64,000 nt of DNA from Curtobacterium aurantiacum (GTDB taxonomy: Bacteria; Actinomycetota; Actinomycetes; Actinomycetales; Microbacteriaceae): positions 1-64,000 of the forward strand of contig NZ_JAHEWN010000002.1 in the NCBI RefSeq assembly GCF_018598555.1, given 5' to 3'. Position numbers and translations under genes: made by a program. Under the pieces are notes generated by a model. That model ran no database searches, was not told the origin of the DNA, and saw only the letters and a list, made by a program, of their open reading frames with translations. Below, piece by piece: positions 164 through 61,647 of this stretch (positions are counted from its first letter, which is position 1; each line of letters starts with the position of its first letter).

Positions 164-211
164 GACGGACGGGAGGCCCGGTGCCGGCTGGCACCGGGCC
201 TCCCGTCCGTC
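164..211. terminator. Family A hairpin, copy 1
   Basis: Two perfect 22-nt arms (164-185 and 190-211) around the loop GGCT; the arm contains GACGGGAGGCCCGGTGCC. There is no T tract. Related hairpins occur at 4515, 10957, 17960, 39298, 53168 and 57978, nearly always just past a stop codon, so a role in transcript 3' ends is inferred. This copy lies past the 3' end of the DUF1992 gene. Confidence 0.65.
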
Positions 212-253
212 CTGTGGGACGCCGGGCCGGCGGCCGCCGTCGTCACGTGCTGG

Positions 254-291
254 GCGACACCTCACGCGCTCACGTGCGCGTGAGCTGTCGC
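254..291. repeat. Family B imperfect palindrome, copy 1
   Basis: GCGACACCTCACGCG (254-268) faces CGCGTGAGCTGTCGC (277-291) with one C:C mismatch. The same element occurs at 5515-5552 and 53254-53291. It starts 42 nt after the family A hairpin, almost the same arrangement as at 53168-53291. Confidence 0.65.
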
Positions 292-378: not shown

Positions 379-981
379 TCAGCCGCGCCGCCACCACCGC
401 CGCGGCTTCGCGTCGAGCCGTGCCTGCTCCGCAGCCTGCGCAGCCGAGGCCATGCGCACCTCGCGGCGCTCCCGCCACGCCTGCACCTCGGCCTCGATGT
501 CACGCATCGGTGTCACCACGGGTGGCCCGCCGAGCAGCTGCCGCCTGGCCTCCTTCACGCGGGCGTTGAAGTCGACCAGGACGTCCCGCACGTCGGACTC
601 CAGGGACAGGGCGTCGAGTGCGTCGTCGAGCTCGGCGTCCTCGGTGCGCAGCGCCAGCGCGGGCGGGGCGATGCCGCGGATGTCCTCGCGCTCGATCTTC
701 GACTTGATCCACCAGTCCGGATCGTGCTGCCCGTCGAGTCCGGGCAGGGGCTTGCCGTGGTACGGGTTGCCCTCGAAGACGCCGCGGCGCTCGGCCTCCT
801 CGATCTGCGCCCGGGCGTGCGCGGCGACGTCGGCGGCCTTGAGCAGCCGACGTTCCTCGCGTTCCGCGCGGACCTCGTCGGGGTCGAGCGACCCCCGCTC
901 GATCTCCTGGTCGACGAGCTGCTGGTAGCGGTAGCGGGCTGCCCTGCGGAGCCGGTCCATCCGTGCATCGACGTCGTTCAT
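379..981 (-). CDS. DUF1992 (DnaJ-homologue subfamily C member 28-like) protein
   Basis: A 200-residue cytoplasmic protein with the DUF1992 domain in its first 90 residues: the IERG motif near 27 and the GNPYHGKPLPGLD block near 71-83 are typical. The remainder is charged and probably helical, ending in a basic WWRR tail. The family shares a domain with eukaryotic DNAJC28 but has no J domain here, and its function is unknown. The gene lies 46 bp downstream of the GH15 gene on the same strand and is probably co-transcribed with it. A pentanucleotide repeat follows the stop directly. Confidence 0.85.
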   Translation of the reverse strand: MNDVDARMDRLRRAARYRYQQLVDQEIERGSLDPDEVRAEREERRLLKAADVAAHARAQIEEAERRGVFEGNPYHGKPLPGLDGQHDPDWWIKSKIEREDIRGIAPPALALRTEDAELDDALDALSLESDVRDVLVDFNARVKEARRQLLGGPPVVTPMRDIEAEVQAWRERREVRMASAAQAAEQARLDAKPRRWWRRG

Positions 982-4514: not shown

Positions 4515-4558
4515 CGGACGGGAGGCCCGTGGCGGCACCGCCACGGGCCTCCCGTCCG
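4515..4558. terminator. Family A hairpin, copy 2
   Basis: Perfect 21-nt arms (4515-4535 and 4538-4558) containing GGACGGGAGGCCCGTGGCGG, just past the rtcB stop. The inner part (GTGGCGG) differs from copy 1 while the outer GGACGGGAGGCCCG is shared. Confidence 0.7.
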
Positions 4559-5460: not shown

Positions 5461-5514
5461 CCCGCCGCGCCGGAACGGCCGGACCGGCGGGACCGGCGGA
5501 GACTTTCGCGCTGC

Positions 5515-5552
5515 GCGACACCTCACGGGCACCCGCGGGCGTGAAGTGTCGC
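5515..5552. repeat. Family B imperfect palindrome, copy 2
   Basis: GCGACACCTCACG (5515-5527) faces CGTGAAGTGTCGC (5540-5552). The single mismatch falls at the same arm position as in the copies at 254 and 53254 (C:A here, C:C there). It lies 54 bp past the DUF1206 stop; a CG-rich low-complexity stretch follows at about 5570-5620. Confidence 0.6.
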
Positions 5553-5652
5553 TGGACGCGTGAACTCGCCGCGCCGCGCCGCGCCCGCGCCCCCGCCCGC
5601 GCCGCCCCCACGCCTGAACGGGCACGGACCGCCCCCGCGGTAGACGGGGTCG

Positions 5653-10956: not shown

Positions 10957-11002
10957 ACGGACAGGAGGCCCGTGGCGGGGTCGCCACGGGCCTCCTGTCC
11001 GT
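10957..11002. terminator. Family A hairpin, copy 3
   Basis: Perfect 21-nt arms (10957-10977 and 10982-11002) containing GGACAGGAGGCCCGTGGCG, 12 bp past the stop of the FMN reductase gene and upstream of the MarR gene. The change to ACAGG is compensated in the other arm (CCTGT), so pairing is maintained. Confidence 0.7.
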
Positions 11003-17955: not shown

Positions 17956-17959
17956 CGGC

Positions 17960-17995
17960 CTGGAGGCACGCGGCGGACCCGACCCGTGCCTCCAG
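17960..17995. terminator. Family A-related hairpin (CTGGAGGC variant)
   Basis: CTGGAGGCACG (17960-17970) pairs perfectly with CGTGCCTCCAG (17985-17995) across 14 nt, 4 bp past the stop of the sigma-partner gene. It shares only the GGAGGC core with the other family A hairpins. It also serves the convergent side of the LysR gene ending at 18026. Confidence 0.55.
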
Positions 17996-18025
17996 TCCGT
18001 CGGTGGGGAAGCCCACTTCCCTGGG

Positions 18026-25814: not shown

Positions 25815-25881
25815 GATGGTTGCGCCCACTGCCGGGCGCACGCCGCGCCTCCAGGCCGCGGGCGGGCCGCGGCAGACCCGC

Positions 25882-25938
25882 TTCGTGAGCAGGAATGGTC
25901 GGGTCCCGATGCGGAACCCGACCATTCCTGCTCACGAA
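25882..25938. terminator. Long perfect hairpin between convergent genes
   Basis: Perfect 23-nt arms (25882-25904 and 25916-25938) around an 11-nt loop; the arm contains GTGAGCAGGAATGGTCGG and is less GC-rich than its surroundings. It sits between the convergent LysR and L,D-transpeptidase genes and could end transcripts from both sides. No T tract. The preceding 60 bp hold a GCCTCCAGG half motif but no gene. Confidence 0.55.
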
Positions 25939-25957
25939 CTGTGGCGGGGTGAGCCCG

Positions 25958-26764
25958 TCAGCGCACCTGGAACGGCGTGCCGAGCGGCAGGCGCTCCGCC
26001 AGGGCCGTGATGTCGGCGTTGTGCATGCGGATGCAGCCGTGCGAGGCCGCCGTGCCGATGCTCGACGTGTCGTCGGTGCCGTGCAGCCCGATCTGTCCGG
26101 GGCCGCCGCCGAACGAGTTGAGCACGTCGGAGAACGCCGTCGTGCCGTACGCGTACGGGCCGTAGCCCTCGTTCGTGGGCGCGAGCAGCTCGGTCAGCGC
26201 GAACCGACCGATCGGCGACGGGGTGCCGCCGGTGCCGGTCGCGACGGGGTAGCTGTCGACGACCTTCCCTGCCTTGTACAGGTCGAGGGTGTTCGTCGAG
26301 CGGGTGACGACGATCGCGTACGGGTCCTCGGACAGGGTGAGCGCGCTCGTCGGCACCCAGCCGGTGCTGCCGTTCGGGCGCTGTGCGAGCTGCACCTCCG
26401 CCCAGCCGTCCTGCTGGTCGACGACCCGGAAGACGAGCGGGGCACCGGACGCCTGCGGGTTCTCGAGGGTCGTCGTGCTCGCGCCACCCGGCTTGCTGCT
26501 GACCGGGACGGACGCGCCGCTGACGGCGGCGACGGTGGTGCTGGCCGGGGCGTCGACCGCGTCGACCGGTGCTGCCGACCGGGTCGGCTTCGGTGTCGTC
26601 GTCGGGGTGGGCGTCGGTGCCGCGACGGACCGGGTCGATGTCGGGGCGGGTGCGGCTGACAGGGGACCGAGCGCGACGAACGCGACGGCCCCCGCACAGA
26701 CGACGGCCACGGCGGCGGCGATCACAGTCGCACGCCGCCGTGGCTCGGTCGGGAGGATCGGCAA
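25958..26764 (-). CDS. L,D-transpeptidase (YkuD domain)
   Basis: A 268-residue exported L,D-transpeptidase, which makes 3-3 peptidoglycan cross-links or attaches proteins to the wall. An N-terminal anchor or signal segment (about 12-36) is followed by a Thr/Pro-rich linker, an SH3-like stretch (about 110-145) and the YkuD domain (about 148-268) with the catalytic motif SHGCIRMHN (nucleophile Cys244). It is 2 bp downstream of the gene for a secreted protein, so the two form an operon and may act together at the cell wall. Confidence 0.9.
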   Translation of the reverse strand: MPILPTEPRRRATVIAAAVAVVCAGAVAFVALGPLSAAPAPTSTRSVAAPTPTPTTTPKPTRSAAPVDAVDAPASTTVAAVSGASVPVSSKPGGASTTTLENPQASGAPLVFRVVDQQDGWAEVQLAQRPNGSTGWVPTSALTLSEDPYAIVVTRSTNTLDLYKAGKVVDSYPVATGTGGTPSPIGRFALTELLAPTNEGYGPYAYGTTAFSDVLNSFGGGPGQIGLHGTDDTSSIGTAASHGCIRMHNADITALAERLPLGTPFQVR

Positions 26765-39283: not shown

Positions 39284-39297
39284 ACGCGAGCGTTTCC

Positions 39298-39339
39298 GGA
39301 CAGGAGGCCCGGTGCCAGCTGGCACCGGGCCTCCCGTCC
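39298..39339. terminator. Family A hairpin, copy 4
   Basis: Arms 39298-39318 and 39319-39339 pair around an AGCT centre except for one A:C mismatch; the arm holds GGACAGGAGGCCCGGTGCC. It lies just past the EIIC stop and is nearly identical to the copy at 53168. Confidence 0.7.
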
Positions 39340-39373
39340 GTTCCCGGTCGCGCTGAGAGCCCTCATAGCGGTT

Positions 39374-52001: not shown

Positions 52002-53141
52002 ATGCAGTTCGGCATCTTCACGGTCAGTGACGTCACGACCGACCCCACCACCGGAACGACGCCGGACGACACCCGGCGGGTCCGCGACATCCTGACGATC
52101 GCCGAGCACGCCGACCAGGCCGGGCTCGACGTCTTCGCGACCGGTGAGCACCACAACCCGCCGTTCGTCGCCTCGTCGCCGACCACGTTGCTCGCCTACC
52201 TCGCGGCGAAGACGAAGGACATCACCCTGTCCACGTCGACGACCCTGATCACCACGAACGACCCGGTGCGCATCGCCGAGGAGTACGCGATGCTCCAGGT
52301 CGTGTCCGACGGCCGCATGGACCTGATGATGGGCCGCGGCAACACCGGCCCCGTGTACCCGTGGTTCGGTCAGGACATCCGCCAGGGCGTCAACCTGGCG
52401 ATCGAGAACTACGCGCTCGTCCGCCAGCTGTGGGAGAACGACGTCGTCAACTGGCAGGGCAAGTTCCGCACGCCGCTGCAGGGCTTCACCTCGACCCCGC
52501 GTCCGCTCGACGGGGTGCCGCCGTTCGTCTGGCACGGCTCGATCCGCACGCCGGAGATCGCCGAGCAGGCCGCCTACTACGGTGACGGCTTCTTCCACAA
52601 CAACATCTTCTGGCCGATCCAGCACACCGAGCAGATGGTCGGCCTCTACCGCCAGCGCTTCGAGCACTACGGGCACGGCCGCGCCGACCAGGCGATCGTC
52701 GGCCTCGGCGGGCAGTTCTTCGCGCGGAAGAACTCGCAGGACGCAATCGACGAGTTCCGCCCGTACTTCGACAACGCCCCGGTCTACGGCCACGGCCCCT
52801 CGATGGAGGACTTCACCGCCCAGACCCCGCTCACCGTCGGCTCGCCGCAGCAGGTCATCGACCGGTACGCCGCCATGAAGGACCACGTCGGCCACTACCA
52901 GCGCCAGCTGTTCCTCATCGACCACGCGGGGCTGCCGCTGAAGACCGTGCTCGAGCAGATCGACATCCTGGCGGAGGACATCGTGCCGGAGCTGCGCAAG
53001 CTGAACGACGAGGGTCGCCCGGCCGACGTGCCGTCGGACCCGCCGTCGCACGCGGCGCGTGCCGCTGCCGCGATGGCTGCGGGCACCCTCGGCAGCGACC
53101 ACGTCGCCGCCGAGGACGAGTGGACGGGCGCGTCCGTCTGA
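52002..53141 (+). CDS. LLM class flavin-dependent oxidoreductase
   Basis: A 379-residue bacterial-luciferase-like TIM-barrel monooxygenase using reduced FMN or F420. MQFGIFTVSDV is the first strand, GEHHNPPF near 52 and MMGRGNTGPVYPWFG near 108 are typical of the group-2 LLM family, and a C-terminal segment with AMKDHVGHYQRQLFLIDHAG near 288 follows. ATG 52002 is used; an upstream ATG at 51939 lies within the operator region. Reduced flavin could come from the FMN reductase elsewhere in the window. A family A hairpin follows after 26 bp. Confidence 0.88.
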   Translation: MQFGIFTVSDVTTDPTTGTTPDDTRRVRDILTIAEHADQAGLDVFATGEHHNPPFVASSPTTLLAYLAAKTKDITLSTSTTLITTNDPVRIAEEYAMLQVVSDGRMDLMMGRGNTGPVYPWFGQDIRQGVNLAIENYALVRQLWENDVVNWQGKFRTPLQGFTSTPRPLDGVPPFVWHGSIRTPEIAEQAAYYGDGFFHNNIFWPIQHTEQMVGLYRQRFEHYGHGRADQAIVGLGGQFFARKNSQDAIDEFRPYFDNAPVYGHGPSMEDFTAQTPLTVGSPQQVIDRYAAMKDHVGHYQRQLFLIDHAGLPLKTVLEQIDILAEDIVPELRKLNDEGRPADVPSDPPSHAARAAAAMAAGTLGSDHVAAEDEWTGASV

Positions 53142-53167
53142 CGAGTGCCGTGAGCGCCACCAAGCGC

Positions 53168-53209
53168 GGACGGGAGGCCCGGTGCCAGCTGGCACCGGGC
53201 CTGCCGTCC
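53168..53209. terminator. Family A hairpin, copy 5
   Basis: Arms 53168-53188 and 53189-53209 pair around AGCT with one G:G mismatch; nearly identical to the copy at 39298. It follows the LLM gene and is itself followed 44 bp later by the family B palindrome. Confidence 0.7.
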
Positions 53210-53253
53210 GTCTCGGCGCGCGTTCTCGGGCCCGCGCCGACGTCACGGGGTGA

Positions 53254-53291
53254 GCGACACCTCACGGGGCTGCCGGCGCGTGAGCTGTCGC
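53254..53291. repeat. Family B imperfect palindrome, copy 3
   Basis: GCGACACCTCACG (53254-53266) faces CGTGAGCTGTCGC (53279-53291) with the same C:C mismatch as the copy at 254. The right arm abuts the stop codon of the SMR gene (53292). Both copies continue with TCAGCGCG. Confidence 0.65.
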
Positions 53292-53645
53292 TCAGCGCGT
53301 GAGCTCGGCGGTGGGCTCCGCGACGGGGCGGGCCGGCACGAGCTTGAGGCCGACCACGCAGCCGACGATGCCGGCGATGAACAGCAGGCGCAGCACGGTG
53401 ACGGGCTCGGCACCGGTGGCCATGCCCCACAGCACCGTGAGTGCGGCGCCGGTGCCGGTCCACACCGCGTACGCAGTGCTGATCGGGATGTGCTTGAGGA
53501 CGTAGCCGAACGCGACGAGGCTGATCACGATCGTGACGCCGAACACGATCGTCGGGCGGAGTTCGGTGAAGCCGTCGCTCTCGCCGAGGGCGGTCGCCCA
53601 GACGGTCTCGAGCGCGGCGCTGACGAACAGGACGATCCAGGCCAC
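53292..53645 (-). CDS. SMR family transporter subunit
   Basis: A 117-residue small multidrug resistance protein with four helices; the essential Glu is in SAALETVWATALG near residue 13 and STAYAVWTGTGAALTVLWG is helix 3. The ending GCVVGLKLV resembles Gdx/SugE-type guanidinium exporters. It starts 1 bp after the previous SMR gene, and pairs of this kind form heterodimers. No guanidine riboswitch is visible; a TetR operator controls the operon instead. Confidence 0.9.
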   Translation of the reverse strand: MAWIVLFVSAALETVWATALGESDGFTELRPTIVFGVTIVISLVAFGYVLKHIPISTAYAVWTGTGAALTVLWGMATGAEPVTVLRLLFIAGIVGCVVGLKLVPARPVAEPTAELTR

Positions 53646-57977: not shown

Positions 57978-58023
57978 ACAGACGGGAGGCCCGTTGCCAG
58001 CCGGCAACGGGCCTCCCGTCTGT
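57978..58023. terminator. Family A hairpin, copy 6
   Basis: Perfect 21-nt arms (57978-57998 and 58003-58023) around AGCC, containing GACGGGAGGCCCGTTGCC. It lies between two convergent stops (57964 and 58037), where it can act for both genes. Confidence 0.75.
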
Positions 58024-60360: not shown

Positions 60361-60495
60361 GAGACGCCGGCGTGTGCGCGTTTGCGAGACGCCGGCGTGT
60401 GCGCAGGACGCCGCGTTGTCCGCGAGACGCCTCCGGATCCGGCGGCGTCTCGACGACATGGCGGCGTCCAACGAACACGCCGGCGTCTCGCGAAC
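60361..60495. repeat. GAGACGCCGGCGT repeat cluster
   Basis: GAGACGCCGGCGTGTGCGC occurs directly at 60361 and 60386 (25-bp period); GAGACGCC recurs at 60424; inverted copies are at about 60443-60450 and 60476-60492 (ACACGCCGGCGTCTCGC). The core GACGCCGGCGTC is itself a palindrome. The cluster fills the gap between the oxidase stop and the glycerate kinase start. Confidence 0.75.
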
Positions 60496-60510
60496 GACCC
60501 CGCGCTGGCG

Positions 60511-61647
60511 TCAGTGCGCGGGCACCGCCGCCGGCAGGGCGAAGCGCGGGTGCGGCGCCCCACCCGTCGCGAGGTCCGCGAGCATCTCCCCGAGCAACGG
60601 CGCGAACTTGAAGCCGTGCCCGGAGAACCCGGTCGCCACGGTGAGCGGCCCCACCCGGTCCATCACGAAGTCCTCGTCGGGGGAGTTGTCGTACAGGCAG
60701 CTGATGAACGTCGGCCGGGTCGCGTCGACCCCCGGCACGTACCGCGCGACGTACGCCTGCAGCCGCTCGGCCTCGGTCGGCACGGGTGCGAAGTCCCGGT
60801 TGTCCGGTTCGACGACGGGACCGGTGCCGTGGAACCCGACCTTGACACCCTCGCCGGGCGTCAGCAGCCCGTACACGTCGTCACCGTCGGCCCAGTGCAC
60901 GAAGCTCGGCCAGGCCTCGTCCGGCAGGTGGCTGGGGAAGTGGGCGGGCTGCTCCTGGGTGACGCGGATGGCCGGGAGGTCCGCCCCGCGTCCGGCGAGC
61001 AGCCCGCCGACCAGCACGGGGGCCCACGACCCCACGGCGGCCACCGCGGACGCGGTGCGGATGGCGGTGCCGTCGGACAGGACCACGGTGACGTCGTCAC
61101 CGTGGTCCTCGAGCCCGGCGACCCCGGTGTCGAACCGCAGGTCGGCGAGACCGGTCCGCTCGGCCAGCGTCAGGAAGACCTCGATCGCCCGATCGGCGCG
61201 GATGCGTCCGGCGGAGGCATGGGTCAGCACGCGCCCCTCGAACGCGATGCCGGGCCAGCGCGCCGCTGCGTCGTCCGGGGTCAGCACCTCGTGCGGGATG
61301 TCCGCGTCGGTGAGGGCCGCGGCGATCGCGTCGACGACCTCGGGCCGACCGTGGTCGACGGCCCCCGTGCGGACGATGAGCTCCTCGCCGGCAGCGGCCT
61401 CGAGCGCTTCCCACAGTTCCAGCGCCCGGGTGGTCAGGGCGACGTACTCCGCGTCGGCGTAGCCCTGCCGGAAGATCCGGGTCGCACCGTGCGAGGAGCC
61501 GAGGTGGTGTCCGCGGGCGTGCTGTTCCAGAAGCAGGACGCGCTCGCCGCGGGCGGTGAGGGCGAACGCGGTCGCAGCGCCGACGACCCCGGCACCGATG
61601 ACGACCACGGGTGCGACGTGTTCGGGGGAACCGGGAGAGGAGGACAT
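60511..61647 (-). CDS. Monomeric sarcosine oxidase/N-methyltryptophan oxidase-like flavoenzyme
   Basis: A 378-residue amine oxidase that demethylates N-methyl amino acids to give formaldehyde and hydrogen peroxide. VVVIGAGVVGAATAF at 13-27 binds FAD, GSSHGATRIFRQGY near 50 is the family motif, and Cys317 in ISCLYDNSPDEDFVMD is where FAD is covalently attached in relatives. ATG 61647 is 6 nt after TACGCT on its strand. Upstream lies the tRNA-Gly gene, on the same strand. Confidence 0.9.
   Translation of the reverse strand: MSSSPGSPEHVAPVVVIGAGVVGAATAFALTARGERVLLLEQHARGHHLGSSHGATRIFRQGYADAEYVALTTRALELWEALEAAAGEELIVRTGAVDHGRPEVVDAIAAALTDADIPHEVLTPDDAAARWPGIAFEGRVLTHASAGRIRADRAIEVFLTLAERTGLADLRFDTGVAGLEDHGDDVTVVLSDGTAIRTASAVAAVGSWAPVLVGGLLAGRGADLPAIRVTQEQPAHFPSHLPDEAWPSFVHWADGDDVYGLLTPGEGVKVGFHGTGPVVEPDNRDFAPVPTEAERLQAYVARYVPGVDATRPTFISCLYDNSPDEDFVMDRVGPLTVATGFSGHGFKFAPLLGEMLADLATGGAPHPRFALPAAVPAH

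Follow-up and report, generated by a model that had tools for sequence, protein, structure and literature searches.

Dispersed palindromes in bacterial genomes can be mobile debris, RNA hairpins or protein sites, and these are seldom distinguishable. REP/BIME elements are dispersed, multi-copy intergenic palindromes that form mosaics with other palindromes and carry complementary mutations. In high-GC bacteria, terminator hairpins are found without a T-tract. DNA uptake sequences (DUS) are present in thousands of copies. One report, in the part available, describes species dialects of the DUS of Neisseriaceae and inverted DUS pairs at terminators (PMC3630211). Among literature titles and abstract starts on Curtobacterium palindromic repeats there was no title on such elements, and the RepRanger paper (PMC12306157), as far as its main text goes, does not mention Curtobacterium.

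The window, the 64,000-nucleotide stretch of Curtobacterium aurantiacum DNA analysed here, belongs to a genome of 3.6 Mb in 35 contigs. It holds two composites of a hairpin, element A, and a palindrome, element B. A preliminary description had placed A at 164-211 and the B core at 254-291, 42 bp apart, and a second A at 53168-53209 and B core at 53254-53291, 44 bp apart. These positions are correct, the two spacers are unlike each other as claimed, and TCAGCGCG continues both composites at 292-299 and 53292-53299. The core of B had been located properly, but its extent was drawn too short: the palindrome runs on into outer arms that had been missed, so the elements cover about 243-302 and 53243-53302. 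The features are as follows, the palindromic elements being given without a strand.

164-211, no strand: element A copy 1, of the GGAGGC..GCCTCC hairpin family; fold -57 kcal/mol, z -10.9
243-302, no strand: element B copy 1, core 254-291; fold -47 kcal/mol, z -8.1
379-981, minus strand: gene for a DnaJ-homologue conserved-domain protein (PF09350), right neighbour of composite 1
4515-4558, no strand: further A hairpin
5504-5563, no strand: element B copy 3, core 5515-5552, between two tandem genes
10958-11001, no strand: further A hairpin
17956-17999, no strand: further A hairpin, with 15 of 18 pairs
39297-39340, no strand: further A hairpin
52002-53141, plus strand: luciferase-like monooxygenase gene (PF00296), left neighbour of composite 2
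53167-53210, no strand: element A copy 2; fold -48 kcal/mol, z -7.6
53243-53302, no strand: element B copy 2, core 53254-53291; fold -35 kcal/mol, z -4.4, on the minus strand
53292-53645, minus strand: small multidrug resistance (SMR) protein gene (PF00893), convergent neighbour of composite 2
57979-58022, no strand: further A hairpin, the sole element between two convergent genes

The inner half-sites of B copy 1 are TCACG and CGTGA, its outer arms are TCACGTGCTGG on the left and TCAGCGCGAAA on the right, and the stop of the PF09350 gene faces it. At composite 2, A lies 25 nt past the stop of the luciferase-like gene, and the right outer arm of B overlaps the stop codon of the SMR gene. B copy 3 has no A in the same gene gap. 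Contig C34 opens with a partial duplicate of composite 1, some 300 bp long and 91% identical, that extends into the right arm of B; the shared similarity places these contig ends in a repeat. The first 77 bp of the window are identical at the start of C34 (L032), with the similarity running on into B, and the contig start (1-290) carries repeats of ACCGGGCGTACCTGGCGG-like units. Rfam models at the gathering threshold matched only one tRNA in the window.

Element A forms a hairpin of 44 nt; its outer arms are of the type GACGGGAGGC..GCCTCCCGTC. Near-matches number 238 in the 3.6-Mb genome, against 1 for a control pattern. A pattern with an 18-base centre was rejected, with one place against three for its control; it failed because the true centre is 20 bases. 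The exact skeleton is present in 98-233 copies per genome in all 24 genus genomes, in 1-3 copies in 5 of 117 other genomes of the family Microbacteriaceae, and in none of 15 genomes from other families of the order. The detector needs 14 or more of 18 positions to be paired, and weaker A-like hairpins escape it, such as one seen by eye between the two B sites of locus L004. Words over-represented between genes are mostly pieces of A, with pieces of B falling below the list. Two further words, GCAAGCAAG and TGCTTGCTT, are also over-represented between genes (GCAAGCAAG 13 times against 0.4 expected, in gaps sampled from the window and L132-L151). Three plasmids, two from Microbacterium and one from Curtobacterium, have an A hairpin match of 87-91% identity over 46 bp (NZ_CP038257.1, NZ_CP126587.1 and NZ_CP064874.1).

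The hairpin lies at gene ends: its median distance to the nearest stop codon is 14 nt (n=53). As a strong GC hairpin at this distance after stops, it resembles the terminators that lack a T-tract; unlike them, it repeats nearly one sequence 98-233 times per genome. With intrinsic terminators it shares a GC stem after the stop and covariation within the stem, but it lacks the T-tract. TTTT was found within 24 nt outside the stem at none of the 132 strand-ends of 66 A hairpins, and at least five T in eight bases at two of them. The stretch 53000-53500, around composite 2, contains no terminator-like site.

Element B has a 38-bp core, GCGACA-NN-TCACG-N12-CGTGA-NN-TGTCGC, and reaches about 60 bp with outer arms such as TTTCGCGCTGA../..TCAGCGCGAAA. 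Four related half-sites are arranged outer-inner and inner-outer around this fixed core. The centre is 12 bases in all matches listed, although 8-16 were allowed. At three mismatches or fewer, the pattern occurs at 34 places in the genome and its reversed control at none. With both families this far above their controls, chance is ruled out for each. Among stretches from named genomes that carry the pattern, 93 of 94 are from Curtobacterium and one is from a Microbacteriaceae bacterium. A looser skeleton (GCGAC-N6-CG-N12-CG-N6-GTCGC) has 1-60 places per genome in all 24 genus genomes, against 0-4 in the 15 from other families, and reversed controls give 0-2; part of these loose matches look like chance.

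The B sites listed for complete genomes are scattered along the length of these genomes, and they prefer a particular gene context. By the codon-usage-based gene calls made in this analysis, the 34 sites of this genome comprise 22 convergent, 8 tandem, 1 divergent, 1 in a gene and 2 at an edge. The 97 sites of named relatives, taken from 80 of the 94 stretches and many of them mutual orthologs, comprise 62 convergent, 23 tandem, 5 divergent, 1 in a gene and 6 at an edge. Counted as distinct gaps, 20 of the 30 with B are convergent; among all gaps of at least 60 bp in 859 kb of this genome, the convergent share is 87 of 447. In three genomes B lies between divergent genes (L012 at 1501-1538, L084 and L115), flanked by genes that, by labels read from their translations, are HTH regulator-like and ABC transporter ATPase-like.

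Both A and B are like REP/BIME in being dispersed, multi-copy intergenic palindromes in mosaics with other palindromes. Unlike REP/BIME, they occur in genomes where the REP-type Y1 transposase family is not detected: a profile search for PF01797 at E <= 0.001 gave no match in 40 genus genomes, and 5 of 14 control genomes were positive. B also differs in its length of about 60 bp, its four half-sites and, as judged by eye, the lack of a GTAG head. In addition, its arms are mostly without covariation, and its sites stay in place while their letters switch between species. With DUS, B shares a short word with species dialects and inverted pairs; unlike DUS, it has tens of copies, is nearly absent from genes and holds four half-sites at fixed spacing.

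The preliminary description took two palindromes in the same order and at the same distance as a sign of one functional or mobile unit and proposed a genome-wide search for both motifs and their separation. In that search, A was found within 400 bp of 14 of the 34 B sites, all 14 at 23-51 bp from the A edge to the B core, and was absent within 400 bp of the other 20. These 14 pairs are partly dependent, as two B sites share one A (L021) and composite 1 is partly duplicated in C34. For the 97 B sites of named relatives, an A lies nearby in 28 cases, at distances of 16-236 bp that in 21 cases are 70 bp or less. Spacing was compared with B placed randomly within the same gene gap at 13 independent loci, 10 from this genome and 3 from relatives. 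A gap of 41-45 bp was found at 5 of the 13 against 0.9 expected (p 0.0014), in a band that was suggested by the window pair, one of which is among the 13. At the same loci, gaps up to 51 bp numbered 11 against 7.8 expected (p 0.047), a second apparent class at 22-28 bp was not significant with 3 against 1.4 (p 0.16), and the overall spread of gaps compared with random placement gave p 0.058.

The two elements also co-occur modestly beyond comparable gaps. Among convergent gaps of at least 130 bp, each distinct gap counted once, A is present in 9 of 17 with B and in 10 of 45 without B (p 0.023 one-sided, 0.030 two-sided). Fisher tests that count B sites, which take one gap twice and include gaps below 130 bp, gave 10 of 22 against 4 of 25 (p 0.053 two-sided) and 10 of 22 against 10 of 45 (p 0.049 one-sided). 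In convergent composites A usually lies beside one stop codon and B beside the opposite stop. Their placement as gene-end elements at opposite ends of a short gap largely explains the fixed distance, a genuine effect of moderate size. The preferred distances sustain part of the earlier view, but not the part that makes A and B one mobile unit. The reading that we prefer, at about even odds, is that the composite consists of two independent gene-end elements in one short gap, A a hairpin and B a putative protein target. B-A-B triplets with spacers of about 25 bp were noted at L021, L037 and L087; as a unit the triplet was rejected, since its three strict examples are one orthologous group.

The orthologs of composite 2 were compared in 28 relatives that have both flanking genes. 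The gap of L168 is not readable, and L092/L174 and L102/L157, which look like the same two genomes, were each counted once. Judged by eye, 26 of the 27 relatives with a readable gap have an A hairpin after the luciferase-like gene, rearranged in L157, L169, L172 and L175; the remaining one, L171, has a single arm. The left gene of L158, with just 63% identity, is possibly a paralog. In the other half of the gap there is a dialect-1 B in 4 of 27 (L035, L157, L172 and L174) and the TCTCG form in 3 of 27 (L154, L155 and L158). The remaining halves hold degraded variants of 38 bp, direct repeats of GCGACAG, a different palindrome or no recognisable element. Direct repeats containing GCGACAG take the place of B in L153, L173 and L175. 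A third palindromic family (GTGAGCAGNAANGGTCGGGTC and its complement) appears in several of these gaps and forms an inverted repeat at 25857-25963 of the window; its exact word is present in 12 of 254 loci examined.

B occurs in two nearly exclusive dialects, with TCACG half-sites (dialect 1) or TCTCG half-sites (dialect 2). Among the 24 genus genomes, the TCACG form has 7-20 copies in 8 (G000 18, G001 14, G002 7, G003 20, G007 10, G008 11, G014 10, G016 14), one copy in 4 (G005, G010, G015, G017) and none in 12. The TCTCG form is most numerous in G005 (17) and G017 (12), followed by G011 (7), G015 (4), G009 (3) and G022 (3), with single copies in G003, G016 and G021 and none in 15 of the 24. 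Both exact forms are absent from the 15 genomes of other families. As 8 of the 24 genus genomes have neither, G006 for instance using other inner letters, the dialect picture covers part of the genus.

The outer half-sites follow the same division. The outer word CTCG is found in 1 of 64 arms in this genome against 81 of 90 arms in dialect-2 loci, a set with at least 9 of 13 core columns paired from which nine loci were removed by hand (three each from G006, G009 and G013). Counts of the motif CGAGWCTCG are 91 in dialect-2 loci (78 kb), 1 in the B loci of this genome (83 kb) and 3 in background (400 kb); for GTTTCGCGC or its complement the corresponding counts are 1, 22 and 1. Genome G005 has 16 stretches with 17 exact dialect-2 sites. 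Nine of these stretches align to B loci here and seven do not, and in the nine B lies at the corresponding place in both genomes, as dialect 1 here and dialect 2 there. From G017, 3 of 12 align clearly to B loci here and a fourth weakly; from G015, 1 of 3.

On a single-gene tree the dialects are scattered, with no clustering by descent: changes are no fewer than with shuffled labels, and well-supported branches force at least four changes for each dialect. The tree has 27 rows (7 dialect 1, 6 dialect 2, 4 none and 10 unknown) and several weak branches, with L158 left out for its low identity. Its label "none" includes G010, which has one TCACG copy, and the dialect-2 label of G043 rests on that genome's own matched rows.

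Although the two families lie in the same gene gaps, they gave opposite outcomes in one covariation test. At 47 A sites, picked by GGAGGC/GCCTCC alone and without a pairing filter, the variable stem columns pair far more often than chance would give: columns 6/25, for instance, are paired in 33 against 18.5 expected and columns 13/18 in 41 against 23.8, levels reached in 0 of 1000 shuffles in both cases. Copying of whole subfamilies may account for part of this. The variable core columns of B mostly pair no better than shuffled across 52 ortholog groups, with, for instance, 23 of 52 against 24.9 at columns 6/31 and 22 of 52 against 17.8 at columns 7/30. Some outer columns of dialect 2, in a set of 37 elements of which some are orthologous and not independent, fall below expectation (columns -11/48, 8 of 37 against 17.5; columns -5/42, 10 of 37 against 17.6). 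In each dialect, 4 of the 35 column pairs of B have a slight excess of pairing, reached in fewer than 50 of 1000 shuffles (dialect 1: -15, -14, 10/27 and 18/19; dialect 2: -15, -12, -9 and 5/32). Complementary mutations of the kind typical of REP/BIME are seen in A, and B has no excess at most columns. That A covaries and B mostly does not, under the same shuffle test, is the main reason to regard A as structured RNA and B as a DNA target, though it falls short of proof given the relatedness of the A copies and of some dialect-2 elements.

From the positions, copy numbers, gene context, core length, dialects and conserved sites, together with the covariation of A and its near-absence in B, we infer a B-binding protein, its co-evolution with the half-sites and the roles of both elements. 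A, as a hairpin just past the stop codon, would most likely end transcription or protect mRNA 3' ends without a T-tract. B would be a palindromic DNA target of four half-sites, most likely bound by a putative sequence-specific protein, and bound B could form a boundary between convergent genes, as a roadblock or an insulator. The in-place change of inner and outer half-sites seen at many loci matches what co-evolution with a putative reader would predict. We propose only tentatively that B is the target of a Curtobacterium protein whose specificity has turned over repeatedly between species, with tens of four-half-site targets per genome rewritten in place. If true, bacteria would have a system of sites and reader that comes in dialects, marks convergent gene ends and differs from both transposons and uptake signals. 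With its sites conserved, the switch of dialect is a natural experiment on a co-evolving reader and, if the reader exists, would offer a new model of a genome-wide set of binding sites changing together.

Counting against B as a DNA target, its RNA also forms a strong hairpin (-47 and -35 kcal/mol), and in position A and B seem to be interchangeable, as two types of terminator would be. Both might then be plain hairpin terminators or stabilisers of mRNA 3' ends without a T-tract, the dialects of B arising by gene conversion or drift with no dedicated protein. This is the most serious alternative to a protein target, though we consider it rather unlikely. Its strengths are that both elements fold strongly and follow stops, that each is found alone between convergent genes, and that other sequences can replace B at the same orthologous gap. 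Against it, the arms of B mostly lack the covariation that A shows under the same test, and the flanks of dialect-1 B read TTT..AAA, a terminator tail in reverse. Gene conversion would be expected to make the centre of B uniform as well, yet its innermost six bases vary about as freely as the DNA around the element. Between whole 12-base centres of dialect 2 the identity is 0.47, compared with 0.30 between random 12-mers, a point for conversion; part of this identity is a conserved rim beside the half-sites.

B could instead be an architectural site, for a nucleoid-associated protein or topoisomerase, where convergent transcription piles up supercoils, A being unrelated. The preference for convergent gaps and the scatter of the listed sites along complete genomes agree with this, and E. 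coli BIME-2 binds gyrase according to the part of one report available (PMC2817692). We nevertheless consider it improbable: the dialects would not follow from a conserved enzyme such as gyrase alone.

That the composite is a mobile mosaic unit, MITE or BIME-like, is very improbable. The triplets, the preferred spacing and the partial duplicate at a contig end would suit such a unit, but the triplets are one orthologous group, and much of the spacing follows from A and B lying after opposite stops of a short gap. A and B vary independently at the site of composite 2, where A is kept in 26 of 27 relatives while the B half varies, and B sites are conserved in place between species. A far outnumbers B and is missing within 400 bp of 20 of the 34 B sites. 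PF01797 has no match in the 40 genus genomes, the composite has no match in phages, and three plasmid records match its A part only. Least probable of all is a self-recognition signal like the Neisseria DUS, which shares the species dialects and inverted pairs described in the available part of that report (PMC3630211) but is hard to reconcile with just tens of B copies and almost none inside genes.

Apart from these families, the window contains a large imperfect palindrome at 60363-60512, with 79-nt arms that are 82% complementary.
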